From: Candidatus Nitronereus thalassa
Lineage (GTDB): Bacteria > Nitrospirota > Nitrospiria > Nitrospirales > UBA8639
Direction: 5' to 3'
Length of the DNA: 64,000 nucleotides
Assembly: GCF_032191465.1 (NCBI RefSeq)
Contig: NZ_JAQOUE010000001.1
Span: 1,984,001 to 2,048,000 of the forward strand
The notes below the pieces were generated by a model. The model ran no database searches, was not told the DNA's origin, and saw only the letters and a program-made list of their open reading frames with translations. Positions 48,133-62,853 of this stretch are shown piece by piece; the stretch's first letter is position 1; each line of letters starts with the position of its first letter. A program made the position numbers and the translations under genes.

Positions 48133-48231
48133 TCGATTCCGGAGAAAACCTCTCTCTTATAAGAACTGCCATATGCTAAGATCCCTATGTAAAGAAGTAG
48201 GTAGAGCCCAACCTTCAACAAATTGGACTCC

Positions 48232-49977
48232 ATGAAAATCCTTTTGCTCGAAGACAATCCCGGAGATGCCCGCCTGATTCGGGAGCTCTTTCGTGAAATA
48301 CAAAACCATTCCGTGGAAATTATCAATGCGGAATCTCTGGGCCAAGCCTTTGACCACCTCAAAAAAAGCCCTTTTGATGTCGCACTGGTAGACCTCTCCT
48401 TACCCGATAGCCACGGGCTGGGGACCTTCCGAAAACTCGCCGAAGCCTATCCCTCGCTTCCACTCGTATTACTCACAGGCCTTAACGACCAAGAAATCGC
48501 AATACAGGCTGTTCGAGAAGGCGCGCAGGACTATCTCAATAAGGGAGAGGTGGATGGTCAAATCCTCGTTCGGTCCATTGACTATGCCATTGAAAGGAAA
48601 CGCATCCAGGCTGAGTTGGAAAGGGTAAATGCCCAAGTCAAAAAAAACGCGGACGATCTCCATTCGATTTTAAATCAACTGCATATCGGCACGATTTTGA
48701 CCAACCCCGAAGGCCGAATTCTCCACATGAGCATTTCCGCCCTCCGTTTATTGGGCAAAATGGATAACGGCCTCGAAGGTCAACTCTGGCAACATGCCTT
48801 GGGATTAACCGACGATGACATTCAGATCCTGGACCATCTCATGACTCAGCCGATCGAAGAACGAAAAAAAGTCCTAGTCCATTTCACGCCTCCAGGAAAC
48901 TCCCCACATTGGCTTGAGATCGACATTCAAGATGACCCCCGTGATCCTCAAGCAAAAATGTTCTTTCTCTATGATGTCACCGAAGTGCACAAGCTTCGAC
49001 AGCAGCTCGATGAAAAGTCCCAGTTTCACGATATGATCGGGAAGTGCAAACCCATGCAGGAAGTGTACCGGCAAATTCAAAACCTCTCCCAGGTTGAAAC
49101 GACTGTGTTAATCGAAGGGGAAACGGGAACGGGGAAAGAACTGGTGGCGCGGGCTCTTCACTATTCAAGCCCCAGAAAGGATAAACCCTTCCTCGCGGTG
49201 AACTGTGCGGGGCTGACGGAATCGTTGCTAGGCAGCCAATTGTTTGGTCATAAAAAAGGCGCGTTCACCGGAGCAAGCACCGACCACCGGGGATTTTTTG
49301 AGTCGGCTCAGGGTGGAACTCTCTTTCTTGATGAAATCGGCGATATGCCTCCTTCGGTCCAAACAAATTTACTGCGAGTCCTCCAAGAAAAAGAAATCAC
49401 TCGACTGGGGGAATCGCAACCGAGAAAAGTCGATGTTCGTATTATCTGTGCCACGCATCAAAACTTAAACGAACAAGTGGCAAACAATCAGTTTCGAGCC
49501 GATCTGTTATATCGGATTCGTGTCGGTCGAATTCGCCTGCCGGCGCTTCGGGAACGAAAAGAAGACATTCCGCTCTTAGTCTCGGCCACTCTGAGTCAAT
49601 GCCGTCAAGCAATGGGTAAGTTAATTGTCCAAGATATCAGCCCCTCTGCCCTACATTTGCTTTCGGATTATGCATGGCCAGGTAATGTGCGAGAATTTAA
49701 AAGCGTTATTGAATATGCCGTTCTCCAATGCGAGGGCTCAACCATTTTACCCCAGCATTTTCCACCTGAGCTCCTTGAGCAACCCAACCACACAGCCCAC
49801 CAAGAAAACCTGGAATTACCCACTGCTCTACCAGAGAAAAATAGAGAACAGATCCTGTCCGCGCTCCAACAAACCAAAGGCAATCGAGCTAAGGCCGCCA
49901 AACTTATGGGCATCAGCCGCGCTACTTTTTACCGGTGGCTGGATGATTTAAACATTTCCACACAAGACCTTTCTTAA
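48232..49977 (+). CDS. Sigma-54-dependent response regulator (REC-PAS-AAA-Fis)
   Basis: A 581-residue NtrC-class activator. REC: LLLEDNPGDARLIREL, phospho-acceptor Asp in VALVDLSLPDSHG, Lys in DYLNKGEVDG. A PAS domain (about 140-250) follows. The AAA core has Walker A GETGTGKELV, the sigma-54 contact loop KKGAFTGAS and Walker B TLFLDEIGDM. The C-terminal Fis-type helix-turn-helix reads NRAKAAKLMGISRATFYRWL. It is expected to bind the inverted repeats upstream of the genes at 50214 and 50988 and to activate sigma-54 promoters there. The start at ATG 48232 was chosen; an in-frame TTG lies nine bases upstream. Confidence 0.93.
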   Translation: MKILLLEDNPGDARLIRELFREIQNHSVEIINAESLGQAFDHLKKSPFDVALVDLSLPDSHGLGTFRKLAEAYPSLPLVLLTGLNDQEIAIQAVREGAQDYLNKGEVDGQILVRSIDYAIERKRIQAELERVNAQVKKNADDLHSILNQLHIGTILTNPEGRILHMSISALRLLGKMDNGLEGQLWQHALGLTDDDIQILDHLMTQPIEERKKVLVHFTPPGNSPHWLEIDIQDDPRDPQAKMFFLYDVTEVHKLRQQLDEKSQFHDMIGKCKPMQEVYRQIQNLSQVETTVLIEGETGTGKELVARALHYSSPRKDKPFLAVNCAGLTESLLGSQLFGHKKGAFTGASTDHRGFFESAQGGTLFLDEIGDMPPSVQTNLLRVLQEKEITRLGESQPRKVDVRIICATHQNLNEQVANNQFRADLLYRIRVGRIRLPALRERKEDIPLLVSATLSQCRQAMGKLIVQDISPSALHLLSDYAWPGNVREFKSVIEYAVLQCEGSTILPQHFPPELLEQPNHTAHQENLELPTALPEKNREQILSALQQTKGNRAKAAKLMGISRATFYRWLDDLNISTQDLS

Positions 49978-49992
49978 CTTTCCCCACCATGC

Positions 49993-50031
49993 GAGACACT
50001 ATGAGACGAATATACGTCTCAAACATGTCTT
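49993..50031. promoter_or_regulatory. Nested inverted repeats, likely activator (enhancer) site 1
   Basis: TGAGACGAATATACGTCTCA (50002-50021) is a perfect 7-6-7 inverted repeat. It is flanked by an outer pair, AGACA (49994-49998) and TGTCT (50026-50030). The centre lies about 90 bp upstream of the sigma-54-like element at 50102. The half-site TGAGAC is shared with site 2. Confidence 0.7.
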
Positions 50032-50101
50032 ACATTAAACCTCTCTCTTTTCTTGCAATTTACAACATGCTGTTTTTAAATAAAATTTCTCCTAAATCAT
50101 G

Positions 50102-50118
50102 TTGGCACAAACATTGTA
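50102..50118 (+). promoter_or_regulatory. Sigma-54-like promoter of the receiver gene
   Basis: TTGGCACAAACATTGTA matches the TTGGCACG-N4-TTGC consensus with correct spacing. The -24 GG is intact; the -12 has GT in place of GC. It lies about 95 bp upstream of the start codon of the receiver gene and downstream of enhancer-like site 1. Confidence 0.6.
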
Positions 50119-50213
50119 TTGATTGGATATCATGATCGATAAATGGGCCGATGCTTTCTAGACATGTGCATTAGAAATTTAAAATCTTGGTTAAATAACA
50201 AACGGTGTGATTG

Positions 50214-50654
50214 GTGCAGGACAAACTTACAATTATCATTATAGAAGATAACCGAGCGGATGTACGGCTTCTCAAAGAAGCCTTAAGGGAATCTTTCCTT
50301 GATCCCACGTTATACATTTTAAATGATGGATCCTCAGCCATTCGCTTTTTTGACGAAATCAAACAGGGAAATTCCCAGGAGCTTCCCCATCTCATCTTGC
50401 TGGATCTCAACCTTCCTCAGATAAATGGCCTTGAGGTCCTTCAACACATTAAGGGTGATGACACTCTTAAGCGAATCCCCGTCATTGTTCTCAGCTCTTC
50501 CCAAAACCCAGATGATATTGCCAAAGCTTATGATCTACATGCGAATTGTTACCTCACCAAGCCTGTGGATCTTGAACCGTTTTTCGAAATTGTCAAAGCC
50601 GTGGAGTATTTCTGGTTCCAATTAGCCAGGCTTCCCTTTTCCTCCAAACGGTAG
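50214..50654 (+). CDS. Single-domain response regulator (Rcp1-like)
   Basis: A 146-residue receiver: IIIIEDNRADVRLLKEAL, Asp in LILLDLNLPQINGLEVL, VIVLSSSQNPDDI and Lys in YLTKPVDLEP. No output domain. The start codon is GTG 50214 or TTG 50211, with only a weak ribosome site. It is downstream of a sigma-54-like promoter and of a candidate binding site for the activator at 48232, so it may form a feedback arm on the sensor kinase. Confidence 0.85.
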   Translation: MQDKLTIIIIEDNRADVRLLKEALRESFLDPTLYILNDGSSAIRFFDEIKQGNSQELPHLILLDLNLPQINGLEVLQHIKGDDTLKRIPVIVLSSSQNPDDIAKAYDLHANCYLTKPVDLEPFFEIVKAVEYFWFQLARLPFSSKR

Positions 50655-50777
50655 AATTACCACTCACTCATTTTTTACCCAATACCATCCTTACCTTCAG
50701 TACTTTTTTGAGTTTTGAAAATCATTTTTGGGGTTTCGTCTCCCTGCATATCCACCCATCCAACTCACCGAAGAATG

Positions 50778-50823
50778 TGTCTCATCACAATATGAGACAT
50801 TTTAATAAGACATACCTCTGTCT
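50778..50823. promoter_or_regulatory. Two inverted repeats, likely activator (enhancer) site 2
   Basis: TGTCTCAT-CACAAT-ATGAGACA (50778-50799) is a perfect 8-6-8 inverted repeat. A weaker copy AGACA-TACCTC-TGTCT (50808-50823) follows with its centre 27 bp downstream. Both have the six-base spacer and half-site of enhancer-like site 1. They lie about 90-130 bp upstream of the sigma-54-like element at 50907. Confidence 0.7.
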
Positions 50824-50906
50824 CGTCTTTCAGAGCTTCTCAATAGAAATATTATTTATTTATTCATAACATATTGTTTTTAATATAATTTTATGTTTTT
50901 AAAATT

Positions 50907-50924
50907 TTGGCACGAGAATTGACA
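50907..50924 (+). promoter_or_regulatory. Sigma-54-like promoter of the SUMF1-like operon
   Basis: TTGGCACGAGAATTGACA has a perfect -24 block (TTGGCACG), a four-base spacer and TTGA at -12 (consensus TTGC). A start site about 12 bp downstream would leave a leader of roughly 50 nt before ATG 50988. Confidence 0.65.
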
Positions 50925-50987
50925 TAAATAACCAACAAGAAGGAAATTAAAACTACAAACTGTCTCATTGAAAGAAAGGACAAAGTC

Positions 50988-51275
50988 ATGGCGACCTACC
51001 AAGCAGGCAACATTTTTCCCATGGGGTCGGATGGGAAGAACCAATTGGAGCACACCTCGCACCCCTGCACGCGGTGCGGTGGCTTGTTCATCGGGGAAAG
51101 CCTTTTTGATCTCTACGACGAAACGGGGCAAATGCGACGGTGGGCGCTTCGGTGCGTGCAATGTGGGGACGTCGTGGATTCCCTCATTCTCAAGAATCGA
51201 ACATGTTCAGAACTTCCAAATCCCATGCAACAGCACCGTCGACGGTGGGCAAGGATGCAATCAGTCAACAGTTAA
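50988..51275 (+). CDS. Small zinc-ribbon protein
   Basis: A 95-residue soluble protein with two CxxC knuckles, HPCTRCGGLF and LRCVQCGDVVD, about 35 residues apart, as in a zinc ribbon. A basic tail (QQHRRRWARMQ) follows. ATG 50988 has AAGGAC upstream. A longer frame starting at 50968 overlaps it in another register and runs into the next gene, but the zinc-ribbon frame has the coding signature. First gene of the sigma-54-like operon; it may bind nucleic acid or protein. Confidence 0.75.
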   Translation: MATYQAGNIFPMGSDGKNQLEHTSHPCTRCGGLFIGESLFDLYDETGQMRRWALRCVQCGDVVDSLILKNRTCSELPNPMQQHRRRWARMQSVNS

Positions 51276-51327
51276 AGATGTGAACAAGGAAAACCCAAAC
51301 CAATTATTTTCAACAAGGAGACGAATC

Positions 51328-52272
51328 ATGAACACACTCTTCACATCCACAAAAGCAATGGTATTAACGTTGTCATTAACAATGGCTCCCTGGGCCACAG
51401 CACTGGGTTCAGACACCACCGACATGGTCCTCATTTCCAAGGGAGAGTTCATCATGGGAAGCCAGGACCACAGCGACGAGACCCCGCACCAAGTCGTCCT
51501 TGACGGGTACTACATTGATAAGTACGAGGTTTCCAACGAGAAGTATAAAAAATTCATGAGGTCCACTCAGCACCCTGCTCCAGCCTATTGGGATGACCCT
51601 CGCTTGAATGGTGCAGATCAACCAGTGGTCGGTGTTAATTGGTATGACGCCAACGCCTTTTGCGAATGGGAAGGTAAGCGGCTCCCGACCGAGGCGGAAT
51701 GGGAACGTGCGGCCAAAGGCCCTGATGGGCATCACTATCCATGGGGCCACAAGATTGATCCTACAAAGGCGAATTATGGACAAAATGTGGGAAAGACCAA
51801 GCCCGTAAATTCATATCCCGAAGGTATCAGTGGCTATGGCGTGTATAATATGGCTGGTAATGTCTTTGAGTGGGTCAGTGACTGGTATGATCCCAACTAT
51901 TTCAAAGTAAGCGCCGCGCTTAACCCTCAAGGCCCGTCCGGTGGCTACAACTTTGCCAACCAAGGTCCGGTGAAAGTGCTGAAGGGTGGCTCATGGCTGG
52001 CCCCTCAGACGTCACTTCACACCAGCCATCGATTCTGGAATCAACCGGAGAATAATTCATATGGGGTGGGACTGGGTTTCCGCTGCGCGACATCTGCCGC
52101 TGACGACAGTATGGAGTCAGTACGGTATCACTTCATGCATTCCCTCATCAGCATGGGCAAAGAAAAATGGAGCGATGCCCTGACTTCGATAGACAAGGCT
52201 CTGAAGCAAGATCCAGAAAACCTTGAATACCAAGAAACTCGCAAAATGATTTTGAAAGAAATCAAAAACTAA
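51328..52272 (+). CDS. Exported SUMF1/FGE-fold protein with C-terminal TPR, no FGE catalytic cysteines
   Basis: A 314-residue exported protein. Signal peptide ends near TALG. The SUMF1 fold begins MVLISKGEFIMGSQDHSDET and contains EVSNEKYKKFM, VNWYDANAFCEWEGKRLPTE, AEWERAAKGPDGHHYPWG and GLGFRCATSA. No Cys lies between LKGGSW and GLGFRC, where true formylglycine-generating enzymes carry their two copper-binding cysteines, so that reaction is unlikely. A TPR-like tail (WSDALTSIDKALKQDPENLE) ends the protein. AAGGAG precedes ATG 51328. It is related to NirV-type and other non-catalytic SUMF proteins. Confidence 0.87.
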   Translation: MNTLFTSTKAMVLTLSLTMAPWATALGSDTTDMVLISKGEFIMGSQDHSDETPHQVVLDGYYIDKYEVSNEKYKKFMRSTQHPAPAYWDDPRLNGADQPVVGVNWYDANAFCEWEGKRLPTEAEWERAAKGPDGHHYPWGHKIDPTKANYGQNVGKTKPVNSYPEGISGYGVYNMAGNVFEWVSDWYDPNYFKVSAALNPQGPSGGYNFANQGPVKVLKGGSWLAPQTSLHTSHRFWNQPENNSYGVGLGFRCATSAADDSMESVRYHFMHSLISMGKEKWSDALTSIDKALKQDPENLEYQETRKMILKEIKN

Positions 52273-52282
52273 TGAGAATTGT

Positions 52283-52315
52283 ATCCTGGGAGGATGAGAC
52301 TCATCCTCCCAGGAT
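52283..52315. terminator. Very strong hairpin between two SUMF1-like genes
   Basis: A 16-base arm ATCCTGGGAGGATGAG (52283-52298), one base, then its exact complement (52300-52315). No clear T tract follows, so it is probably a partial terminator or an mRNA-stability element that uncouples the two genes. The centre reads TGAGACTCA. Confidence 0.6.
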
Positions 52316-52348
52316 TTCACTTCCTACATGCCTCAGAGAGGAATGGAC

Positions 52349-53446
52349 ATGACTGAGAATTACTTCCATAAAAATGTGATTTCAAAAACGTTGTGGGTTC
52401 TTATGATCACGGTGGGGCTTACATTCCATGCCATCGAACCAGCCTCTTCGAAATCTCTCAACGTGGTTCCGGAGGACATGGCTTACATTCCCTTCGGGCT
52501 GGCAATCATGGGAATCGATAAAGACATTAAACAAAGAACCTCCGTTCAAAGTGAGACTCCCTCCCTTTATGAACGTAGAATGTCGATGCCCTGGTCCAAA
52601 GCAGCGTTTCAGGATGAAGGGCCTGCCCATTGGGTCCTCCTCAGCTCCTATCTCATAGACAAGTTTGAGGTGTCGAATCAAAAGTATGGGAAATTCATGA
52701 AGGCGACGGGACATGCAGCTCCGGCGTATTGGGATGACCCTCGCTTAAACGGCGACACGCAGCCGGTAGTGGGCGTGAACTGGTTTGATGCGAAGGCCTT
52801 TTGTGAATGGGAAGGCAAACGCCTCCCCACGGAAGCCGAATGGGAGAACGCGGCCCGAGGCCCAGAAGGACTGATCTACCCCTGGGGAAACGCTTTTGAC
52901 GCGGGCAAAGTCAACAATGGCAAACGAAATGCGTCTACGATGCCCATTGACTCTCTTGAAGAGTCTGTTAGCCCCTATGGGCTTTATCACATGGCGGGCA
53001 ATGTCTTTGAATGGGTGAACGATTGGTACGATCCAAACTATTATTCCAAAGGCCCCTTTCAACCCAATCCAGCAGGACCACCCAAAGGGGTTTGGTTGGG
53101 TGGCACAGGAACGTATGTTGATCGGCTAACAGTCGGGGAGAAAAAAGTTATCCGAGGTGGATCCTGGATTGCCGGCAATCATACCGTGACAACCACTCAT
53201 CGATTTTGGAATCACCCAATGAATAACAGCTATGGTGTGGGACTAGGATTCAGATGTGCACAGACAACCACCCAAGAAGTTGAAGATGCATTTCGAGTGT
53301 ACGCCATCAAGGCAATGAAGGAAGTGGGAATGGAGCGGTACAAGCAAGCCGGAGATTATATTGAAGAAGCCCTTAAGGTTGATCCACGGAATGAAAGTTT
53401 GTTGCGACTTAGGGACATTGTCCAAAAGGGTCAGAATCAATCTTGA
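52349..53446 (+). CDS. Exported SUMF1/FGE-fold protein with C-terminal TPR
   Basis: A 365-residue paralog of the preceding protein. After a signal-like segment, DMAYIPFGLAIMGIDKDI opens the SUMF1 domain, followed by a ~50-residue insert. Then come YLIDKFEVSNQKYGKFM, the near-identical core VVGVNWFDAKAFCEWEGKRL and GLGFRCAQTT. No cysteines lie between IRGGSW and GLGFRC. A TPR-like tail (YKQAGDYIEEALKVDPRNES) ends it. GAGAGGA precedes the start; ATG 52343 and 52328 are in-frame alternatives. It is probably exported and may pair with the first copy. Confidence 0.85.
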   Translation: MTENYFHKNVISKTLWVLMITVGLTFHAIEPASSKSLNVVPEDMAYIPFGLAIMGIDKDIKQRTSVQSETPSLYERRMSMPWSKAAFQDEGPAHWVLLSSYLIDKFEVSNQKYGKFMKATGHAAPAYWDDPRLNGDTQPVVGVNWFDAKAFCEWEGKRLPTEAEWENAARGPEGLIYPWGNAFDAGKVNNGKRNASTMPIDSLEESVSPYGLYHMAGNVFEWVNDWYDPNYYSKGPFQPNPAGPPKGVWLGGTGTYVDRLTVGEKKVIRGGSWIAGNHTVTTTHRFWNHPMNNSYGVGLGFRCAQTTTQEVEDAFRVYAIKAMKEVGMERYKQAGDYIEEALKVDPRNESLLRLRDIVQKGQNQS

Positions 53447-53522
53447 ATTTTACATCGGCGAACAACAATTCACCTCGGTGAATTAAATAAAATGGGGTAT
53501 GGCCAATAAACAGAGGTGAACC

Positions 53523-53894
53523 ATGAAAAAACAAAATTTTATAAAACTCACCATGATCGCTTGGAGCATAACCTGGGGCATGGGGTTGGCATGGGCCGGC
53601 CCTGCCGGAAGTCAATTCATCCCGCAAAATCCCGTCCAAGAGTCGCTTTACCTCGCTGGAAAAAATGTAGAGGAAGCATGGGAAGCATTTCATCATGCCG
53701 CACTCGGAGGGACTCTGGCATCACCAGATATGCAGACAAAGATAGAAGAGGCTCTCCATACATCTCGCCTTCTACTAGTCGATGCTCGGAATGCTGCAAG
53801 GGACAACGACACCAAAACCGTGTTCAAAATAACCAATCGAATTGAAAAAATTTCTGATCAAATTAAGGAAGATAGTCAAAGGCCAAAACAATGA
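53523..53894 (+). CDS. Small exported helical protein
   Basis: A 123-residue exported protein. Signal segment ends at GLAWA. The mature part is predicted all-helical, for example VEEAWEAFHHAALGGTLA and IEEALHTSRLLLVDARNAAR, ending KISDQIKEDSQRPKQ. No Cys and no recognised family. It overlaps the third SUMF1-like gene by 4 bp (ATGA), so the two are coupled and may act together. Confidence 0.72.
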   Translation: MKKQNFIKLTMIAWSITWGMGLAWAGPAGSQFIPQNPVQESLYLAGKNVEEAWEAFHHAALGGTLASPDMQTKIEEALHTSRLLLVDARNAARDNDTKTVFKITNRIEKISDQIKEDSQRPKQ

Positions 53895-54715
53895 ATACGA
53901 AATTGATCACCAGACTGCTCCTTGGCCTGATCTTTTGCCATCTCCCTGCATGGGCCAACCATCCGGAGGTAGAACGGGATGATGTATCCATGGTGAACAT
54001 ACCGGCAGGAAACTTTATCCGAGGGAGTAGCACGGGAATGGGTCGATCGGACGAAATGCCAAGAGAAAAAATATACATCGATGCTTTTTCCATTGATAAA
54101 TTCGAAGTGACCAATAAACGGTATCTGGCCTTCATTGCGGCAACGGGCCATAAAGAGCCCTATAATGTTTATGAAGAAGGTTCATTATTTAAAGTGACAG
54201 ACATTCATGATCTCCCGGTCGTCCAAGTCACATGGCATGATGCCGCGGATTACTGCCAGTGGGTGGGAAAACGTCTCCCCACGGAGGCCGAATGGGAAAA
54301 AGCGGCCAGAGGCACGGATGGGAGGATGTTTCCCTGGGGCGACGAGAAGCCATCGTCACTCCATGCCAATTACGATCGTGATTGGGCTGACAAGGCAACC
54401 CTCAAACCAGTGGGATCTTTGCCACAAGGCGCGTCCCCTTACGGGGTGCATGACATGTCTGGAAATGCCAGAGAATGGGTCCAGGATTGGTATGACAAGG
54501 ATTATTATGCCCAGGCTCCCAAGCGCAATCCTAGGGGACCCGACAAGAGCCTTCTCAAGGTGATCCGAGGAGGGTCATGGCGTAGCTTCGACTCAGACAT
54601 CAGAGCGGCGGCACGAGGCAAGGGGGGATTTGCCCTCAAAACTCACGGAACCGGGTTCCGGTGCGCTAGAGATATGTCGACAGAACACAAGATCAGGCTG
54701 CAAGGTCCAGAATGA
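53891..54715 (+). CDS. Exported SUMF1/FGE-fold protein, no TPR
   Basis: A 274-residue third paralog, lacking the TPR tail. The signal peptide (LLLGLIFCHLPAWA) is followed by VSMVNIPAGNFIRGSSTGMG, YIDAFSIDKFEVTNKRYL, VTWHDAADYCQWVGKRLPTE, AEWEKAARGTDGRMFPWGDE, DMSGNAREWVQDWYDKDYYA and TGFRCARDMS. It has no cysteines at the FGE copper site. It is closer to the general bacterial SUMF family than to the other two. Coupled to the helical protein gene before it. Confidence 0.86.
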   Translation: MNTKLITRLLLGLIFCHLPAWANHPEVERDDVSMVNIPAGNFIRGSSTGMGRSDEMPREKIYIDAFSIDKFEVTNKRYLAFIAATGHKEPYNVYEEGSLFKVTDIHDLPVVQVTWHDAADYCQWVGKRLPTEAEWEKAARGTDGRMFPWGDEKPSSLHANYDRDWADKATLKPVGSLPQGASPYGVHDMSGNAREWVQDWYDKDYYAQAPKRNPRGPDKSLLKVIRGGSWRSFDSDIRAAARGKGGFALKTHGTGFRCARDMSTEHKIRLQGPE

Positions 54716-54814
54716 TGACAATACAAGAATCCAGGAATATGGAAGTTGTTCAGAAAAAGTCTCAAATAAATGGATCTATGACAAGTCTTGTACAATGAAG
54801 GAAACGGACAAATT

Positions 54815-55402
54815 ATGAAAGTCGCCCGTCGATTTCAAATCCTATCAATCGCAGTAGCCATTGTCCTGATAGGATTCAATGTTTCCTGGCCTCATGAATA
54901 TTCCGGAGACCTCAAGGGTATAGATCCCATGATCGTGGCGGAATACATCCATGCGGTGATCGAATCGGACCGAACTCTCTATGCGATTCATGTGGTCGAG
55001 AGAATGCAAGACACCGGCACTGCCATTGCTTCAGAGAGATGGGAGGCCATGAACGCCCTACCACTACCAGCCCAAATGCTTCTACTCTCCGGAAAGCGGG
55101 TTCAGAAAATGGGAGTGGGACTCCACTATAGATTGGCAAGTCTATGGCCAATTTACGCCAAAAACGGTCCTAAAACCGACTTCGAACAGCAAGGGCTTGA
55201 GGCGGTAGTGAAAGATGGAAGCCAGCCCTACACGGATATCATTGAAGAAGGTAACACCAAATTTTTTGTGGCGATTTATGCCGATCGTGCCGTCTCAAGT
55301 GCGTGCGTTAATTGTCACAACACTCACATCCTCAGTCCGAAACGAGATCAAAAATTAGGCGATGTGATGGGGGGACTGATCATTTCTTTCCCCGTTCAGT
55401 AG
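54815..55402 (+). CDS. DUF3365 (Tll0287-like) c-type haem protein
   Basis: A 195-residue exported protein with one haem c motif, ACVNCHNTH, near the C terminus. The N-terminal segment (ILSIAVAIVLIGFNVSW) is a signal or anchor. The string MNALPLPAQMLLLSGKRVQK and the C-terminal DVMGGLIISFPVQ are family hallmarks of DUF3365, often the sensory part of redox-sensing kinases and chemoreceptors. As a free-standing exported haem protein it could carry electrons or bind gases. It is in the sigma-54-like operon, upstream of the cupredoxin-like gene. Confidence 0.85.
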   Translation: MKVARRFQILSIAVAIVLIGFNVSWPHEYSGDLKGIDPMIVAEYIHAVIESDRTLYAIHVVERMQDTGTAIASERWEAMNALPLPAQMLLLSGKRVQKMGVGLHYRLASLWPIYAKNGPKTDFEQQGLEAVVKDGSQPYTDIIEEGNTKFFVAIYADRAVSSACVNCHNTHILSPKRDQKLGDVMGGLIISFPVQ

Positions 55403-55457
55403 AACAAAATTTAGTTTTGTCATCAAATGCTATTCGATCTTTAAAATACGAGAACAC

Positions 55458-56408
55458 ATGTTGAAACTTTTCACCAAGGAAATCCAAATCAGATTAGGGA
55501 TATTTCTTTTTCCCATGATCTTTACAACCATGGACTTGGTCACAGGCCCCTACCCAGCCCTCAGTTACGAAGAAAGGACAGATTTTCAGGGAGGGCGTTT
55601 GACTGGCACGGTCGTTCTGAATGGTACTTTGCCTCAACCCAAACGATACAATCTGGTCTTGTTCCCTGATCCTTACTACTGTGGCCGAATATCAGATGGG
55701 AAAGGGTGGCGCATGTCTCCATTCATGCAATTGAGATCAAGGGATACCATTCCTGGAGTTCTTGTGTTCCTCAACAATATCGAATGGGGAAAACCTCTTC
55801 GGCTGCAACGACCCGTCGTACAAGCCAAAAACTGTGAGTTTGCCCCTTATATTACAAAGATATCTCACGGGAATACGCTCGCTTTTGAAAACTTAGACCC
55901 CGTCCCTCACGACATTGAGGTCTTCGAATATTCAGAAAAGGGAGGGAAATTTATTTTTCGCGAGCCCCTTGTAAGGAATCCCCAACTTCAGAAAAGTGAT
56001 TTCCTGACTGAAAACGGGCAAGCGAAACATCTGCCAGGTCCCAAAGTGACCCACCGGGCCTTCTCAAAAGGACCAATGGTTTTTCGATGCAGCTTTCATG
56101 AATACATGGAGGCATGGGGATTTGTCTTGAGTCATCCCTATTACTCTATCACGGGAACCTCGGGTGAATTTACGATCACTGATATTCCGCCTGGAAAGTA
56201 TCAGCTTGTGGTTTGGCATCCTCTTGGCCGGCTGGAGCAGTATATCGAGATCACCGCCTCTCACACATTGAGTCTCGACCTCGAATTTAAACCGACCGCC
56301 CCCATCACATATGCGGAAGATAAACCTCAGCCCAACCCGTTTGGCATTGATCTGTTAGGCGATAGTCAAATCGTTCCCACGGTGGAACTGCAGAAATGGG
56401 AGGACTAG
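55458..56408 (+). CDS. Exported cupredoxin-like protein with carboxypeptidase-regulatory-like domain
   Basis: A 316-residue exported protein. The first domain contains DPVPHDIEVFEYS and later MVFRCSFHEYMEAW, giving His plus C-x2-H-x2-M, the ligand set of type 1 copper (amicyanin-like loop). The second domain (about residues 235-290) contains GTSGEFTITDIPPGKYQLVV, typical of carboxypeptidase-regulatory or Cna-B-like beta sandwiches. This points to a periplasmic electron carrier or copper-binding protein. It is the last gene of the proposed sigma-54-controlled operon, next to a haem protein gene. Confidence 0.82.
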   Translation: MLKLFTKEIQIRLGIFLFPMIFTTMDLVTGPYPALSYEERTDFQGGRLTGTVVLNGTLPQPKRYNLVLFPDPYYCGRISDGKGWRMSPFMQLRSRDTIPGVLVFLNNIEWGKPLRLQRPVVQAKNCEFAPYITKISHGNTLAFENLDPVPHDIEVFEYSEKGGKFIFREPLVRNPQLQKSDFLTENGQAKHLPGPKVTHRAFSKGPMVFRCSFHEYMEAWGFVLSHPYYSITGTSGEFTITDIPPGKYQLVVWHPLGRLEQYIEITASHTLSLDLEFKPTAPITYAEDKPQPNPFGIDLLGDSQIVPTVELQKWED

Positions 56409-56500
56409 CCATTGCATCCCAACAAGACATTGGCCATCAGGGCAACAGCCATGAGCCAGAAATTCCTTGTTGCGAAGCAACTCTCAAGGAGGTATGACCC

Positions 56501-57421
56501 ATGAACATTATCATTGCAGGAGGAACCGGGTTTATTGGGAAGCACCTTTGTCAAGAATTAAGTGAACGTGAACACAAGGTGACAGTTCTCACACGGAACG
56601 CCTCCAAAGCGCGAAATGTCCTTCCCACACAAATTCATCTCAGCGAGTGGGACTGTTTAAACTGGGGTTCTCTGGAAAGCACGCTCTCCGGGTCGGATGC
56701 CGTCATCAATCTGGCCGGGGAACCGATTGCTGAGGGCCGATGGACTCCATCGCGCAAAGAACAGCTTCGCTCCAGCCGGATCGATACGACTCGCATGATT
56801 GTGAACGCGATGTCCAATCTTCCTCTGACCGTTCGCCCCAGAGTGCTTATCAATGCTTCGGGCATCGGGTATTACGGTCTTGATGAAACTAAGACCGTCG
56901 ATGAATTATCAAAAGCAGGAAATGGTTTTTTGGCCGCTTTGTGTGTGGAATGGGAAGCCGAAGCCTTGAGGGCCACTGACTATGGCCTTCGAACAGTATG
57001 CCTGAGAACCGGAATGGTCTTGGGCCAAGACGGAGGTGCTCTCCCTAAGATGCTCCTCCCTTTTCGCCTTTTTCTGGGAGGGCCAATTGGTGATGGCCAG
57101 CAACCAATTAGCTGGATTCACGTGAAAGATCACGTCCAACTCATTCAGGCTATTCTTGAACATGATTCCTATCGGGGCCCGATTAATGCTGTGTCCCCTC
57201 ATCCAGTAACTATGAAAGAGTTTTGCATTCAATTAGGCAAGGTATTAGGGAGACCCTCTTGGCTTCCAGTCCCAAGATTTGCTCTGAAGCTTGGATTGGG
57301 TGAATTATCCACGCTCATGACACATGGACAACGGGTCGACCCTTTGATGGCACAAAAACTGGGGTTCACTTTTCAATACCCCAAGCTCCCGTCTGCACTT
57401 TCGGAAATACTAGAAAAATGA
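56501..57421 (+). CDS. TIGR01777 family NAD-dependent epimerase (SDR39U1/YfcH-like)
   Basis: A 306-residue extended SDR. NAD-binding motif IIAGGTGFIGKHLCQEL, GSDAVINLAGEPIAEGRWTP, INASGIGYYG with the catalytic Tyr, and SWIHVKDHVQLIQAIL. The C-terminal DUF1731-type region ends ALSEILEK. The AAGGAGG ribosome site is clear. In many bacteria this family lies beside photolyase, YbgA/DUF1722 and B12-dependent MerR regulator genes; here the latter two are a few genes downstream. Substrate unknown. Confidence 0.9.
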   Translation: MNIIIAGGTGFIGKHLCQELSEREHKVTVLTRNASKARNVLPTQIHLSEWDCLNWGSLESTLSGSDAVINLAGEPIAEGRWTPSRKEQLRSSRIDTTRMIVNAMSNLPLTVRPRVLINASGIGYYGLDETKTVDELSKAGNGFLAALCVEWEAEALRATDYGLRTVCLRTGMVLGQDGGALPKMLLPFRLFLGGPIGDGQQPISWIHVKDHVQLIQAILEHDSYRGPINAVSPHPVTMKEFCIQLGKVLGRPSWLPVPRFALKLGLGELSTLMTHGQRVDPLMAQKLGFTFQYPKLPSALSEILEK

Positions 57422-57463
57422 TCGGAAGGACGGTGTTTCTGACATAGTTGAAAGGAAAATTTT

Positions 57464-58039
57464 ATGATCACTCATTGTTCATTCAAAGGCCTATTGATAA
57501 AAACGTTCGGATCGAGCCTCATATGCCTCTATTCCCTCATGCTGTTCAGTGTTACTGGATGGTCCATGACGGTCAACATATCCCGAGGGCAGCCAATTCC
57601 CGACGCCACACTTCTTGGTGCAGACAATACCCGTATACAAATGAACGAACTCAAGGGTCGCGTAAAAATTTTGAGCGTGGTTCCACAACTCAATACTCCT
57701 GTCTGCGATGAACAGACGCATCGATTTAGTGAAAAGAATGAGGGGTTGGATCAACACCTTCAAATTGTCACGATCAGCACGAATACCTATGAGGATCAAG
57801 CGGTCTTCGCAGAAAAAGCCCGAATTGGAAATATCACCTTTCTCTCTGACTCTCCCGATTTTGATTTTGGCCGAAAGACAGGTTTCTTGCATCCCATGCA
57901 TCAAATTTTGCAACGCGCAGTGATGGTGCTGGATGAGGAAAATGTCGTGCGGTATATTGAAATTGTACCCATGAGCCAGCTCCCTAATTTCCCGGCAGCA
58001 TTAGAGGCGGCTCGGCGTGTGCTTGGTCCTCGTCCCTAA
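57464..58039 (+). CDS. Exported thiol peroxidase-like (Tpx) protein, apparently 1-Cys
   Basis: A 191-residue peroxiredoxin of the Tpx/AhpC fold. A signal segment (SSLICLYSLMLFSVTGWS) is unusual since most Tpx are cytoplasmic. The peroxidatic site reads VPQLNTPVCDEQTHRF with the Thr and Cys conserved. The resolving Cys of E. coli Tpx (helix 3) is missing: FLSDSPDFDFGRKTG has none, and the only other Cys are in the signal. It would need an external thiol reductant. Fifth-gene spacing is tight to DUF4149 (9 bp). Confidence 0.85.
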   Translation: MITHCSFKGLLIKTFGSSLICLYSLMLFSVTGWSMTVNISRGQPIPDATLLGADNTRIQMNELKGRVKILSVVPQLNTPVCDEQTHRFSEKNEGLDQHLQIVTISTNTYEDQAVFAEKARIGNITFLSDSPDFDFGRKTGFLHPMHQILQRAVMVLDEENVVRYIEIVPMSQLPNFPAALEAARRVLGPRP

Positions 58040-58047
58040 GAGGTGTC

Positions 58048-58512
58048 ATGATGGTAGAAACTCTGGCCTATCTCCATATCCTCGCGATTGCCGTGCTCGT
58101 AGGAAAGGTCGTTTTTTTATCCTTCGTGACCGCCCCCGTGCTCGCACGAACTCTGGACCCTGATTCGTTTGCGAAGGTCGTGCGCCAACTCTTTCCCCAG
58201 TACTATGCGCTGGGAATGGTGGCGGCCACCATAGGATGGGCCACGATCACAAGCATCGGTCTTTTAAAAGGGTTCGGCCCCATTGATCTGATTTCTTCCA
58301 CCCTGTGGCTTGGCATCTTGACCATTGAAAATTACTGTCGATCGCCTCTGACACCAAGAATTAATGCTTTGAGTGATCGATTGAAGGAGGCAGACCAACG
58401 AGGACTAAACATCCTTTCCGTTAAAAAAGATCGAGATGATCTCCATCGCCTGTCTGTACAACTCAATAGCCTGGTGCTGATCATTGGATTGTGCTTGATA
58501 GGATTGATCTAA
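58048..58512 (+). CDS. DUF4149 membrane protein
   Basis: A 154-residue protein with four hydrophobic segments. LHILAIAVLVGKVVFLSFV, FAKVVRQLFPQYYALGMV and LVLIIGLCLIGLI are consistent with DUF4149. Ala/Pro-rich TAPVLARTLDPDSF lies at the start of the second segment. Function unknown; it is in the run between Tpx and the PDZ protein. Confidence 0.78.
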   Translation: MMVETLAYLHILAIAVLVGKVVFLSFVTAPVLARTLDPDSFAKVVRQLFPQYYALGMVAATIGWATITSIGLLKGFGPIDLISSTLWLGILTIENYCRSPLTPRINALSDRLKEADQRGLNILSVKKDRDDLHRLSVQLNSLVLIIGLCLIGLI

Positions 58513-58538
58513 GCCTACGACCCAACAAGGAGAATAAA

Positions 58539-59018
58539 ATGAAAACATCGGCACAAACCTCATTTCTTCAGTATTCCCTTTATTCCGAGCGTTGGATTCT
58601 GCTGACTAGTTTCCTCGGAATCCTGCTCCTGTTCCCAATCAAGGGCCATAGTCAGGAGAGCTATCCAATCCAAAGCAACCCTCATGGGGACATGGAACAA
58701 CCCATGCTGCCACCACCAGGAATTATCGGAGTGGCCTTGCATCTCACCGCAGAGCGTATCGGGGACCCTGCGGGATTATTTATCAGGGCCACTCATCCTG
58801 CGGGGCCAGGAGCCAGAGCAGGACTCGCCCATGGACAAGAAATCTTGGCCGTGGATGGTCAACCAGTCAAAGGCAAAACCTATCGTGAAGTCGTCGCGAT
58901 TATACGGGGAGAAATCGGGAAATCCGTGACACTTACTGTGAGAACGTTTTCAAATGTTAAAGAAGTGAAAATAATTCGTGTGAGTGAAGACATGTTATCG
59001 GAAGAGAAACACACCTGA
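58539..59018 (+). CDS. PDZ-domain protein, exported
   Basis: A 159-residue exported protein. A signal segment (WILLTSFLGILLLFPIKG) is followed by a PDZ domain with IGVALHLTAERIGDPAGLFI, GPGARAGLAHGQEILAVDGQ and VVAIIRGEIGKSVTLTV. No protease domain is attached, so it may be an adaptor or a reduced C-terminal protease relative. ATG 58539 has AAGGAG seven nt upstream. It lies in the tight gene run with Tpx and YbgA. Confidence 0.82.
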   Translation: MKTSAQTSFLQYSLYSERWILLTSFLGILLLFPIKGHSQESYPIQSNPHGDMEQPMLPPPGIIGVALHLTAERIGDPAGLFIRATHPAGPGARAGLAHGQEILAVDGQPVKGKTYREVVAIIRGEIGKSVTLTVRTFSNVKEVKIIRVSEDMLSEEKHT

Positions 59019-59070
59019 TCAAGAGGTATGGATAACCAAGTCTCGTCTTCACGGACTTAAGACAATTATT

Positions 59071-60072
59071 ATGAAAACCACCCCCTCCACCGCAAAACCG
59101 CATGAAGATAAAAAGGAACCCCTTCCTTCAACACTACGCATAGGGATCAGTCACTGCCTGCTAGGTGAAGAAGTGAGGTTTGATGGTGGGCATAAACGTG
59201 ATGGTTTCTTAGCCGACACCTTTAGTCAATTTGTCGAATGGGTCCCCGTCTGCCCGGAATACGAGGCGGGGTTGGGCATTCCCCGTGAGGCCATGCGCTT
59301 GGTGGGAAATTCGGACAATCCGACCCTTATTACGATTAAAACAAAAAAAGACCACACAGCCCTTCTGAAAAATTATTCTCAGAAAAAGGTCAAAGAACTC
59401 GAAACCATGAATTTAGATGGCTTTGTCTTTAAGAAGGATTCCCCAAGCTGCGGAGTTCATCGGGTCCGAATTTATAATGACCATGGAATGCCCAACCCAC
59501 ATGGCAGAGGACTCTTTGCCCAAAGATATATTGAAAGCAATCCTCTGATTCCCGTGGAAGAAGAGGGGCGGCTCAATGATCCGGTATTAAGGGAAAACTT
59601 TGTCGAACGTGTGTTCTGCTACCAACGATGGCGGCTCCTGAATCGCGCTCGGGTCAACCGCAGGGCACTTGTCGAGTTTCATACAAAACACAAGTTTCTG
59701 TTGTTAGCCCATGGTCGGACCCATTATCAAAAACTTGGTCGCCTCGTGGCGGATAGTAAAAAGTATTCTCCAAGTGAATTGACGACCGAGTATGGAAATC
59801 TGTTCATGGAAGCCCTCAAAACGAAGGCAACTACGCGAAAACACATGGATGTACTCCAACATCTCGCCGGATTTCTTAAAAAACAATTGTCTCGTAATGA
59901 ACGCCAGGAATTAGTCGAAGTCATAGAAGACTATCACCGTGGCTTGACCCCTCTCATCGTTCCTCTCACCTTGATTATTCATTACGTCAAGATCCATCAG
60001 ATTAGTTATCTGCTCGATCAGGTCTATCTGACGCCTCATCCCAAAGAACTGATGTTACGCAACCATGTCTAA
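59071..60072 (+). CDS. DUF523-DUF1722 fusion protein (YbgA-like)
   Basis: A 333-residue protein. The DUF523 part begins RIGISHCLLGEEVRFDGGHK, then FVEWVPVCPEYEAGLGIPRE and FKKDSPSCGVHRVRIY, with Cys in each motif suggesting metal or thiol chemistry. The DUF1722 part has LVEFHTKHKFLLLAHGRTHY and LVEVIEDYHRGLTPLIVPLT. YbgA-like genes commonly adjoin photolyase genes and B12-dependent MerR regulators. Its last 8 bases overlap the regulator gene. It has been linked to photolyase function; the reaction is unknown. Confidence 0.88.
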   Translation: MKTTPSTAKPHEDKKEPLPSTLRIGISHCLLGEEVRFDGGHKRDGFLADTFSQFVEWVPVCPEYEAGLGIPREAMRLVGNSDNPTLITIKTKKDHTALLKNYSQKKVKELETMNLDGFVFKKDSPSCGVHRVRIYNDHGMPNPHGRGLFAQRYIESNPLIPVEEEGRLNDPVLRENFVERVFCYQRWRLLNRARVNRRALVEFHTKHKFLLLAHGRTHYQKLGRLVADSKKYSPSELTTEYGNLFMEALKTKATTRKHMDVLQHLAGFLKKQLSRNERQELVEVIEDYHRGLTPLIVPLTLIIHYVKIHQISYLLDQVYLTPHPKELMLRNHV

Positions 60073-60997
60073 ATTTCAGTGTAACCCATCAGGATTCGGC
60101 ATCAAGCATCTGTCGGAGATCACAGGGTTAAGTGCCCATGTCATAAGAAAGTGGGACCAACGGTACAATTTCCTATCGCCTTATCGTGCTGAAAATGGTT
60201 ACCGTCTGTTTACTCCGATAGATCTTCAATTATTGATCTTTATTAAATCTCAGGTCGCCCTGGGTAACACTATTGGACAACTCGCCCTTCGAGGCCGGGA
60301 GGCGCTCATCGCCGAAATGAATTCCGGTCCCCTAGACCTGAGTGTATTTCCCGTGGAAGTTCAATCCCAGGTTGCTGAGATACTGGACGCAGCAAGGAAG
60401 GGAAACCAGGCAGCCGTCGAATACACCCTATATCTTTTCGTTCAGCACTATGGCATTGACCGAGCGTTGATCGACATATTTTTTCCAATCCTTCGGACCA
60501 TTGGCGATCTTTGGCATCAAGGGCGTATTGGCATTCCAGGAGAGCAATCAGTTTCTCAAACCATTCGTAGAGTGCTTGCTGAAGATATTTTACTTCAAAA
60601 GGGAGCAGAGAAGCCGCAGGCATTGATCGCCTGCATGCCCAATGATTACCATGAAATCGGCGCAATGGCAGCGTTGCGGCTTCTTCAAAAGTGCGGCTGG
60701 AAAGCCCTTTACCTTGGTGCGGATTCGAGTATTGAAATTGTTCGACTGGCTTGCACCCGGAGGCAGGCACAACTGGTTCTATTTTCCTGCGTCGTTGAGC
60801 GCTCCCCTGAAGAAATGAAAGCCCTCATTGACAATATCGTGAAACATTTACTGCCTATCACCAACGTAGTCATAGGAGGTCAAGGAGGTTTGTTATATAT
60901 TGACTGGCTTGAACGAAAGGGTATCCGGTATATTGGAAAATTGGAAGCCGTAAAGGAACTCCATCCCCGATCATTGGAACATTCACGGATAGCCTAA
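60065..60997 (+). CDS. MerR-family regulator with B12-binding domain (CarH/LitR-like)
   Basis: A 310-residue regulator. The MerR DNA-binding domain reads GIKHLSEITGLSAHVIRKWD then QRYNFLSPYRAENGYRLFTP. The middle helical domain has IGDLWHQGRIGIPGEQSVSQ, equal to the W-x9-E-H capping motif of CarH except that the final His is Gln (W-x9-E-Q); the His right after the Trp is kept. The Rossmann domain has the cobalt-ligand motif D-x-H-x-x-G as NDYHEIGAMA. CarH binds adenosylcobalamin in the dark as a tetramer and falls apart in light. It is coupled to the YbgA-like gene. Confidence 0.87.
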   Translation: MSKFQCNPSGFGIKHLSEITGLSAHVIRKWDQRYNFLSPYRAENGYRLFTPIDLQLLIFIKSQVALGNTIGQLALRGREALIAEMNSGPLDLSVFPVEVQSQVAEILDAARKGNQAAVEYTLYLFVQHYGIDRALIDIFFPILRTIGDLWHQGRIGIPGEQSVSQTIRRVLAEDILLQKGAEKPQALIACMPNDYHEIGAMAALRLLQKCGWKALYLGADSSIEIVRLACTRRQAQLVLFSCVVERSPEEMKALIDNIVKHLLPITNVVIGGQGGLLYIDWLERKGIRYIGKLEAVKELHPRSLEHSRIA

Positions 60998-61042
60998 AAA
61001 AGTTATTAGCAATGTGACGAATATGAAAAAGGAGTGGCAAAC

Positions 61043-61573
61043 ATGAGTGATGAAACAAAAGGGGTCATACTCGTTGGCCATGGCGGAATCCCCAAGGGAT
61101 TTCCCGGTGACCTTGTGACAAAATTAAAACGACTCGAAGCCCAACGGAGGGCAGCGGGGAAACCCATGTCCGAAGAAGAATATGAACTTGACCAAAAAAT
61201 TCGGCTCTGGCCACGAACGCCAGAAACTGATCCTTACCAAGCCGGGCTTGAACGGTTGGCCACACAATTAAAACCTCTCACCGATGGCGGGCATTTTTCA
61301 ATCGCATATAACGAATTCTGCACCCCCACTTTGGAGGAGGCCATTGAAAAACAAATTGCTGAGGGGGCCAAGGACATCACGGTGGTATCTACCATGTTCA
61401 CCCCTGGAGGCTCCCATTCGGAATATGAAATTCCTGAGGAAATGGCTGAGCTGCGAAAGAAGCATCCGGGAGTCACGCTGACTTACGCCTGGCCTTTTGA
61501 TCTTGGCAAAGTTGCTGAAATGCTAGCGGAACATATCCAACGATTCCAAGCGCAACCCGCGGGAAAGAGTTGA
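61043..61573 (+). CDS. CbiX/SirB-like chelatase
   Basis: A 176-residue protein of the small CbiX/ferrochelatase-like family. The two metal-site His are in VILVGHGGIPKGFP and FTPGGSHSEYEIPEEM. A charged insert (DQKIRLWPRTPETDPYQ) near residue 50-65 is typical of the ferrochelatase-like subgroup found with B12-light regulators. It probably inserts cobalt, nickel or iron into a tetrapyrrole. GGAG lies about 9 nt before ATG 61043. It is the last gene of the run. Confidence 0.82.
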   Translation: MSDETKGVILVGHGGIPKGFPGDLVTKLKRLEAQRRAAGKPMSEEEYELDQKIRLWPRTPETDPYQAGLERLATQLKPLTDGGHFSIAYNEFCTPTLEEAIEKQIAEGAKDITVVSTMFTPGGSHSEYEIPEEMAELRKKHPGVTLTYAWPFDLGKVAEMLAEHIQRFQAQPAGKS

Positions 61574-61890: not shown

Positions 61891-62853
61891 ATGTCCGAAA
61901 AGTTAAAGATTGGCAACAAACGAGCGATGTTCGCGGTTGTCTTCGCAATGGTTACAGGTTCCCTTCTGAGCTTAGGAAACATTCCTTTAGCCGTAAGTCA
62001 GCCAGTCACGATTCCGGTGACAAAGATTGCAGGTGACATTCCCATGGATGCCGCCGCCCCCATTTGGGAAACGGTGCCTGGCGTGATAGTACCCCTCAGC
62101 GGCCAAACCATCACCACGCCCATGCACCCCAATATTTCCGTCAAGACGGTGATGGTTAAAATGGCTACTAATGGACGCGACATTGGGGTGTGGGCGAATT
62201 GGGGAGATCAAACCCTCAATGAAACGGTGATCGGACCACAGGATTTCCGTGACCAGATGGCCGTTCAATTTCCAGTACAAACATCCGGGGCACCCCCCTT
62301 TCAATGCATGGGGCAATCGGGTGGCACCGTTAACATTTGGCGATGGAATGCTGAATGGCAAAAGGATCTCGGAACTGGTGTCGCAGGAATGTGGGACGTG
62401 GATCAGCAATATCCTTCCCTAGCCTGGGATTATTACTATGAAGAACCGGCAGGTGGAGTGACTTACATGGACCGCAACGGACGATCCTCTGGTCCATTCA
62501 ATGAAGGGATCTGGTCCGGGAATATCCTGTCTGATCCCAACCTTCGAAAAAGTTCCGTGGAGGATTTAAATGCCAACGGGTTTAGTACGTTGACCACACA
62601 AACGAATCAAAATGTTCTCGGAAACGGATTATGGGAACCCTATGGCGCGCTCAAGGGCGGATGTTGTAACGGCCCCACATGGCGAGTGGTGATGAAGAGA
62701 ACCCTCAAAACCGGCGATAAGAACGACGTACAATTTCTCTCAGGCATGACTGTCCCTGTGGCATTTGCAGTCTGGGATGGGTCAAACGTTGAACGCAATG
62801 GGATGAAAGGAATTTCCACCTGGTTCAGCGCAAAGATGCCAGACAATCTGTAG
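61891..62853 (+). CDS. nxrC: NXR gamma-subunit-like haem-binding protein (NxrC type)
   Basis: A 320-residue exported protein of the ethylbenzene-dehydrogenase-gamma-related family, the presumed third subunit of nitrite oxidoreductase, which binds haem b and passes electrons on. After the signal peptide (ending AVSQP), NIPMDA-type IAGDIPMDAAAPIWETVPGV opens the fold; GRDIGVWANWGDQ follows. The Met in FQCMGQSGGTVNIWRWNAEW and the Lys in WRVVMKRTLKTGD fit the haem axial ligands known in EbdC. The AGGGGAGGAAAACGT leader gives a strong ribosome site. It is not adjacent to nxrAB here; such unlinked nxrC copies are common in Nitrospira. Confidence 0.88.
   Translation: MSEKLKIGNKRAMFAVVFAMVTGSLLSLGNIPLAVSQPVTIPVTKIAGDIPMDAAAPIWETVPGVIVPLSGQTITTPMHPNISVKTVMVKMATNGRDIGVWANWGDQTLNETVIGPQDFRDQMAVQFPVQTSGAPPFQCMGQSGGTVNIWRWNAEWQKDLGTGVAGMWDVDQQYPSLAWDYYYEEPAGGVTYMDRNGRSSGPFNEGIWSGNILSDPNLRKSSVEDLNANGFSTLTTQTNQNVLGNGLWEPYGALKGGCCNGPTWRVVMKRTLKTGDKNDVQFLSGMTVPVAFAVWDGSNVERNGMKGISTWFSAKMPDNL

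Follow-up and report, generated by a model that had tools for sequence, protein, structure and literature searches.

Organization of the operon and the regulator genes upstream

The DNA analysed here (the window) is a stretch of 64,000 nucleotides from Candidatus Nitronereus thalassa (G000:C1:1984001-2048000), whose genome is assembled as two contigs, 4.01 Mb in all. It contains a run of 14 forward-strand genes at 50988-61573, with intergenic gaps of -8 to 102 bp, which includes a gene for a CarH-like regulator and is preceded by genes for a LOV-domain sensor histidine kinase and a sigma-54-dependent response regulator. A sequence-only reading had described 56501-61573 as a B12-regulator operon with the genes of a photolyase neighbourhood but no photolyase; according to Pfam and NCBIfam, the genes that it named form the 3' half of the 14-gene run. 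Gene order, promoter sites and distribution among relatives suggest that this operon is probably switched mainly by the upstream LOV system.

The three genes upstream of the operon lie on the same strand and were assigned from their Pfam domains. The first (46018-48132) encodes a histidine kinase with PAS, LOV (residues ~345-470), HisKA and HATPase domains; the second (48223-49977) encodes a response regulator with a receiver domain, an AAA+ domain carrying the GAFTGA motif and a Fis-type helix-turn-helix, the composition of an NtrC-type sigma-54 regulator; and the third (50211-50654) encodes a single-domain response regulator receiver. The operon begins with a small CxxC protein (50988-51275), whose position is conserved in relatives, and three FGE-sulfatase-domain proteins (FGE1, 51328-52272; FGE2, 52343-53446; FGE3, 53891-54715), with a small protein that has no Pfam match between the last two (53523-53894). 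These are followed by a Tll0287-like protein whose sequence contains a CxxCH motif (54818-55402), a protein with a carboxypeptidase-regulatory-like region scoring below the Pfam cut-off (55458-56408), a TIGR01777 SDR oxidoreductase (56501-57421; 347 bits against a cut-off of 207), a Tpx-like peroxiredoxin (57464-58039) that passes the Pfam Redoxin cut-off and falls below that of NCBIfam Tpx (88 against 123), a DUF4149 protein not included in the earlier description (58048-58512), a PDZ-domain protein (58539-59018), a RudS protein (59071-60072), the CarH-like regulator, termed CarH-1 (60065-60997), and a CbiX-like protein that ends the run (61034-61573). The CarH/LitR-like regulator and the TIGR01777, Tpx-like, PDZ and CbiX-like genes therefore lie where the sequence-only reading had placed them.

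The gene previously called YbgA-like is, in Pfam, a fusion of TudS (DUF523) and DUF1722. Counted from the sequence, its Cys29, Cys61 and Cys127, together with Glu63, Arg72, Ser124 and Ser126, fit by spacing the published RudS residues Cys17, Cys49 and Cys114 of the cluster and Glu51, Arg60, Ser111 and Ser113 (PMC11417400). With the three cluster cysteines and the catalytic Glu, Arg and two Ser kept, the protein is RudS, a predicted tRNA 4-thiouridine desulfidase. Its proposed coupling to the regulator stands, the two genes overlapping by 8 bp, and its identity is refined.

Two mutually exclusive putative sensors upstream of one operon

The LOV segment of the kinase matches LOV domains of known structure, the best at 1.5e-34; phototropins, aureochromes and blue-light-activated kinases are among them. 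The seven residues checked, the adduct cysteine and the flavin contacts, are those that we take to matter in LOV domains, and the window kinase carries them. In the alignment all 13 orthologues, that of the window included, retain the adduct cysteine, and 11 have all seven residues; at one of the seven positions the LOV domains of G004 and G005 carry Tyr. A sigma-54 gene is present in the genome.

The relatives compared were Nitrospira, Nitrospirales and Nitrospirae bacteria. Of the 17 g1/g2 genomes, 13 encode both a kinase and a regulator orthologue; at like identity, none of the 31 other genomes has the two together. The order of the window, from the pair through the receiver and CxxC genes into the operon, recurs in G027 and in eight g2 loci; the pair and the operon lie on separate contigs in G004 and G006, and on one contig, further apart, in G013. 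The pair is missing from G002, G007, G014 and G026 (64% complete). The nearest relative, G027 (L071, L086), has the LOV pair and the operon and no CarH-1; its photolyase gene lies about 1.7 kb after the CbiX gene, and a second RudS gene is found on another contig.

With the window regulator as query, 48 family genomes yielded two classes of CarH-like protein, about 30% identical to each other: CarH-1, whose gene follows RudS, and CarH-2, whose gene is divergent and upstream of the operon. Among 80 named loci collected with the first FGE protein as query, 58 have a divergent CarH-2, nine have the LOV pair, 13 have neither and none has both. Many of the 13 have short flanks; one of them, L093, comes from the G013 contig, on which the LOV kinase gene is located past the end of the flank. 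Many of the loci L091-L170 belong to the G-numbered genomes, so that locus and genome counts overlap. The operon of Candidatus Nitrospira defluvii (L168, FP929003) shares the gene order FGE, SDR, DUF4149, PDZ, RudS and CbiX but has a divergent CarH-2 for the LOV pair and a photolyase in the slot between SDR/PDZ and RudS, and CarH-1 was not found in it. In two Nitrospinota records (L169, L170) a CarH-2-like gene is divergent from FGE-domain genes, so the cluster extends beyond Nitrospirota. This wide occurrence makes the CarH-2 arrangement the probable ancestral one. In four Nitrospira loci (L142, L144, L154, L167) the FGE1-FGE3 part is present twice, in tandem.

Candidate operator and promoter sites

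In each of the two intergenic gaps within 49978-50988, a TTGGCAC..TTG site comes after a TGAGAC/GTCTCA dyad. In front of the receiver gene, a proposed activator site at 50002-50021 is the genome's only exact match to TGAGAC-N8-GTCTCA; the sigma-54-like promoter that follows on the forward strand (50102-50118) has two mismatches to the consensus, and such matches alone are near chance. In front of the operon, the proposed activator site (50778-50825; half-sites TGTCTCA, TGAGACA and TAAGAC-N8-GTCTCG, conserved in relatives) consists of an exact inverse dyad at 50778-50799 beside a dyad with two mismatches at 50806-50825, and is followed by a forward-strand sigma-54-like promoter at 50907-50923, whose spacing to the dyad is nearly constant in relatives. 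The two gaps align with a score of 52, higher than all 500 shuffles (mean 27.6, maximum 49). The dyad and the sigma-54-type site precede the operon in all ten g1/g2 genomes that have the region, 82 bp apart in nine and 85 bp in one; the scan itself gave the combined site in nine, the region of G012 having been cut short, and the site is present in its full region. Between the window and g2, half-sites and promoter are conserved at 84% and 73%, against 34% for the spacer between them. A dyad in front of the -24/-12 promoter of its target is the arrangement of NtrC-type regulators, and the dyad is the predicted binding site.

The promoters of the CarH-2 type, compared in those 55 of the 80 loci that have a usable CarH-2-to-FGE1 gap, are built differently. 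The combination of dyad and sigma-54-type site occurs in none of the 55, nor in any of 20,000 shuffles. The reported operator of CarH consists of TnnACA repeats at 11 bp (PMC8156234, PMC9304148), and at least two TnnACA elements at an 11-bp step are found in 45 of the 55 CarH-2-type promoters, in none of the ten LOV-type promoters and in 3.8% of shuffles.

The sequence-only reading had pointed to 56410-56500 as the DNA site of the regulator, which was probably wrong in emphasis, as the conserved dyad and sigma-54-type site lie about 5.5 kb upstream. This segment was rejected as a regulatory region: it has no tandem CarH-type repeat and no listed promoter-like site, and the stretch scanned has fewer sigma-70-like sites than its shuffles (8 against 16.3). 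A scan of the window for TTGTACA-type palindromes gave one match against 1.9 expected. An Rfam search of 40000-64000 gave no match at gathering thresholds, and thus no cobalamin riboswitch was seen there.

CarH-1, a drifting paralogue

CarH-1 has a MerR helix-turn-helix and the four-helix and Rossmann B12-binding domains, all over their Pfam cut-offs, and it matches Thermus CarH (PDB 5c8d) at 1.9e-31. The D/ExHxxG-SxV/T-GG motif for B12 is present (DYHEIG, SCV, GG). An intact W-x9-EH motif is reported as the signature of CarH (PMC8156234, PMC9304148); the window protein instead has WHQGRIGIPGEQ (W-x9-E-Q) and retains the His adjoining the Trp. The motif reading agrees in this with the sequence-only reading, which had recorded the change to Gln, the His next to the Trp and the D-x-H-x-x-G motif (as D-Y-H-E-I-G). 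Given W-x9-E-Q in place of W-x9-EH, we name the regulator a CarH paralogue and not CarH; its score of 134 bits is under the NCBIfam CarH equivalog cut-off of 400 bits.

In a tree of 83 rows, with fragments of less than 250 residues excluded and the root placed at the midpoint for drawing, CarH-1 (24 rows) and CarH-2 (59 rows) fall on opposite sides of fully supported branches. W-x9-EH is present in every CarH-2 row (56 by pattern, three by eye). The Trp, the adjacent His and the Glu are kept in all 24 CarH-1 rows, and the residue after the Glu is H in 11, Q in 10 and N in three; the Q state requires three changes on the tree, at least two of them forced by well-supported branches. The E-Q change thus recurs in relatives and is not unique to this genome. 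Two pairs of E-Q CarH-1 genes in genus g10 have ratios of nonsynonymous to synonymous substitution (dN/dS) of 0.20 and 0.22, and so the E-Q proteins are not simply decaying. Elsewhere in the family, CarH-1 of G035 (contig L107) was matched in separate pieces, and G020 (L033) has a CarH-like stretch with two in-frame stops, each a sign of decay or of assembly error.

The family search with the regulator found no CarH-2 in this genome, and a first contig scan with a CarH query found no relative. The two B12-binding-2 matches in the genome are CarH-1 and a frame of 1250 residues, from its size probably methionine synthase; a cobalamin adenosyltransferase is also present. Being intact here, with Trp, His and Glu, CarH-1 may still bind cobalamin with an altered upper face. 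It is retained in four of the 17 g1/g2 genomes (the window's, G010, G013 and G014), and since the other 13 are without it, CarH-1, the second and drifting paralogue, is likely accessory. In G014 (L035) an E-Q CarH-1 follows RudS, and the LOV pair, CarH-2 and photolyase were not found; lacking the LOV pair and CarH-2, that genome may have CarH-1 as its only regulator of the cluster.

Two other roles for CarH-1 have to be weighed against the accessory one. The first, in line with the sequence-only reading, is that it is the working adenosylcobalamin photoreceptor of the operon, a dark repressor that leaves the DNA in light, with Gln for His merely tuning the pocket. The invariant Trp, His and Glu, the retained lower-ligand motif, the intact gene coupled to RudS, the dN/dS of about 0.2 in the two E-Q pairs and the adenosyltransferase would all fit such a role, but its absence from 13 of the lineage's 17 genomes, its low CarH score, the lack of CarH-type tandem repeats in LOV-type promoters and a report of H142 as a key residue for adenosylcobalamin binding (PMC11796333) make it improbable. 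The second is that CarH-1 has become independent of B12 and serves as a plain repressor or as the partner of another sensor. There are parallels in Myxococcus CarA, which is reported to have lost part of the Wx9EH motif (PMC9304148), and in the class II LitR of Pseudomonas, reported to be controlled by a short LOV protein (PMC9758184), and the motif of CarH-1 drifts repeatedly; we nevertheless consider this somewhat unlikely, as CarH-1 retains the Trp missing from CarA as well as both B12-binding domains, and most genomes that lack CarH-1 still have the LOV kinase.

Photolyase and neighbouring genes

No photolyase gene lies within 56501-61573 or elsewhere inside the operon, as the sequence-only reading had it for the segment that it covered; its view of the cluster as a photolyase, CarH/LitR and RudS neighbourhood is likewise supported, the slot between SDR/PDZ and RudS holding a photolyase in 32 of the 50 related loci that span it and none in 18. 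The absence does not extend to the genome. A single PF00875 match (G000:C1:2056386; 1.2e-49), on which the reading of a genome without photolyase was rejected, belongs to a gene at window-equivalent 72362-73792 (L002 12362-13792), outside the window and 10.8 kb past the end of the operon, and the usual slot is therefore empty in this genome. The TGAGAC/GTCTCA pattern occurs near this gene at chance level only. PF00875 matches were obtained in 22 of the 48 family genomes; the 14 genomes of genus g2 gave none.

Past the operon, a protein of PF09459, an ethylbenzene-dehydrogenase-type haem subunit family, is encoded at 61891-62853; several relatives have proteins 80-87% identical to it, and it may be a gamma subunit of the nitrite-oxidoreductase type. 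Near the LOV kinase, a radical-SAM-like protein (44889-45752) has a Pfam match below the cut-off, and we take it to resemble proteins of the SPL/COG1533 group, for which DNA repair photolyase is a frequent annotation.

A proposed light-activated operon

We favour the view, to which we give a probability of about two in three, that this is a light and near-UV stress operon switched mainly by the upstream LOV two-component system, and that sensor and operator were exchanged jointly in this lineage. Blue light would act on the LOV kinase, which would phosphorylate the sigma-54 response regulator; the phosphorylated regulator would bind the TGAGAC/GTCTCA dyads and activate both the receiver gene and the operon from their sigma-54 promoters. 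RudS would remove the photosensitive 4-thiouridine of tRNA, and the peroxiredoxin, the Tll0287-like protein and the FGE-domain proteins may counter photo-oxidative stress. CarH with adenosylcobalamin represses in the dark and releases in light. In the usual design of the operon CarH-2 would do the same at a sigma-70-like promoter, as its motif and the 11-bp repeats in relatives suggest, and a LOV kinase with a sigma-54 activator in its place would turn repression into activation. The balance tips slightly towards a replacement by which the lineage exchanged a cobalamin photoreceptor for the LOV kinase, the sigma-54 regulator and their operator, and dark repression for light activation, with a leftover CarH paralogue in the window, G010 and G013. 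Scarcity of vitamin B12 is a possible driver of the exchange; Nitrospira marina is reported to require external B12 and to make riboflavin (PMC8115632).

Several observations weigh against control by light through the LOV pair. G014 keeps a shortened operon without the pair; dyads with one mismatch are not enriched in the genome (six places, against five for the reversed control); sigma-54 matches by themselves are close to the number expected by chance (9 against 4.6), and the -12 elements are without the consensus C. The LOV-type genomes are one lineage, and hence the exclusion and the conserved sites may reflect a single event. Finally, the kinase has an additional PAS domain, besides a long N-terminal region, and may thus respond to signals other than light. 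The last point, together with the reported co-regulation of Caulobacter LovK by redox state (PMC4844311), would suit a LOV pair that controls the operon but senses mainly redox or some other signal, the operon being one of general oxidative stress. This seems quite improbable in view of the conservation of the adduct cysteine and flavin-contact residues among the kinase orthologues, and of the equivalent operon in relatives, which sits under a CarH-2 with an intact photoreceptor motif.

The proposed LOV-switched operon has partial counterparts elsewhere. The light-inducible LitR/RudS/PhrB operons of Pseudomonas (PMC11417400, PMC9758184) resemble it in having a MerR-type relative of LitR/CarH, RudS, a photolyase neighbourhood and a LOV protein in the control circuit; whereas Pseudomonas has class II LitR and short LOV proteins, in this genome the LOV domain forms part of a histidine kinase accompanied by a sigma-54 regulator, CarH-1 has both B12-binding domains, the photolyase gene stands apart from the operon, and the operon also contains FGE, Tll0287 and CbiX genes. 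With the CarH of Thermus and Myxococcus (PDB 5c8d), CarH-1 shares the domain order, the Trp, adjacent His and Glu, and the lower-ligand His, but it has E-Q for E-H, and its gene lies inside an operon whose promoter is without CarH-type tandem repeats. Caulobacter LovK-LovR, the Brucella LOV-HK and YF1-type chimeras likewise combine LOV with HisKA/HATPase domains and have response regulators nearby; in the window, by contrast, the likely output next to the kinase is a sigma-54 activator of the NtrC type, with a conserved dyad upstream of the promoter. A partial literature search, by titles and the openings of abstracts, found no description of a LOV kinase with a sigma-54/NtrC output and no paper on such wiring with CarH/LitR or LOV in Nitrospira. 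The parts are thus of known kinds, and their combination and the exchange of sensors appear, as far as we have seen, to be new.

Light is reported to inhibit nitrifiers, Nitrospira inopinata among them (PMC9797979), and little is known of how nitrifiers sense it; this family offers a conserved operon with two alternative sensors and exact candidate promoter sites. The drift of the CarH-1 pocket among H, Q and N amounts to a set of natural mutants at a position that is reported to be key for adenosylcobalamin binding (PMC11796333). If the proposed exchange is correct, it would represent a natural case in which one bacterial regulon, operator included, changed from B12 to flavin as the basis of its light sensor, and a LOV kinase that feeds a sigma-54 activator.

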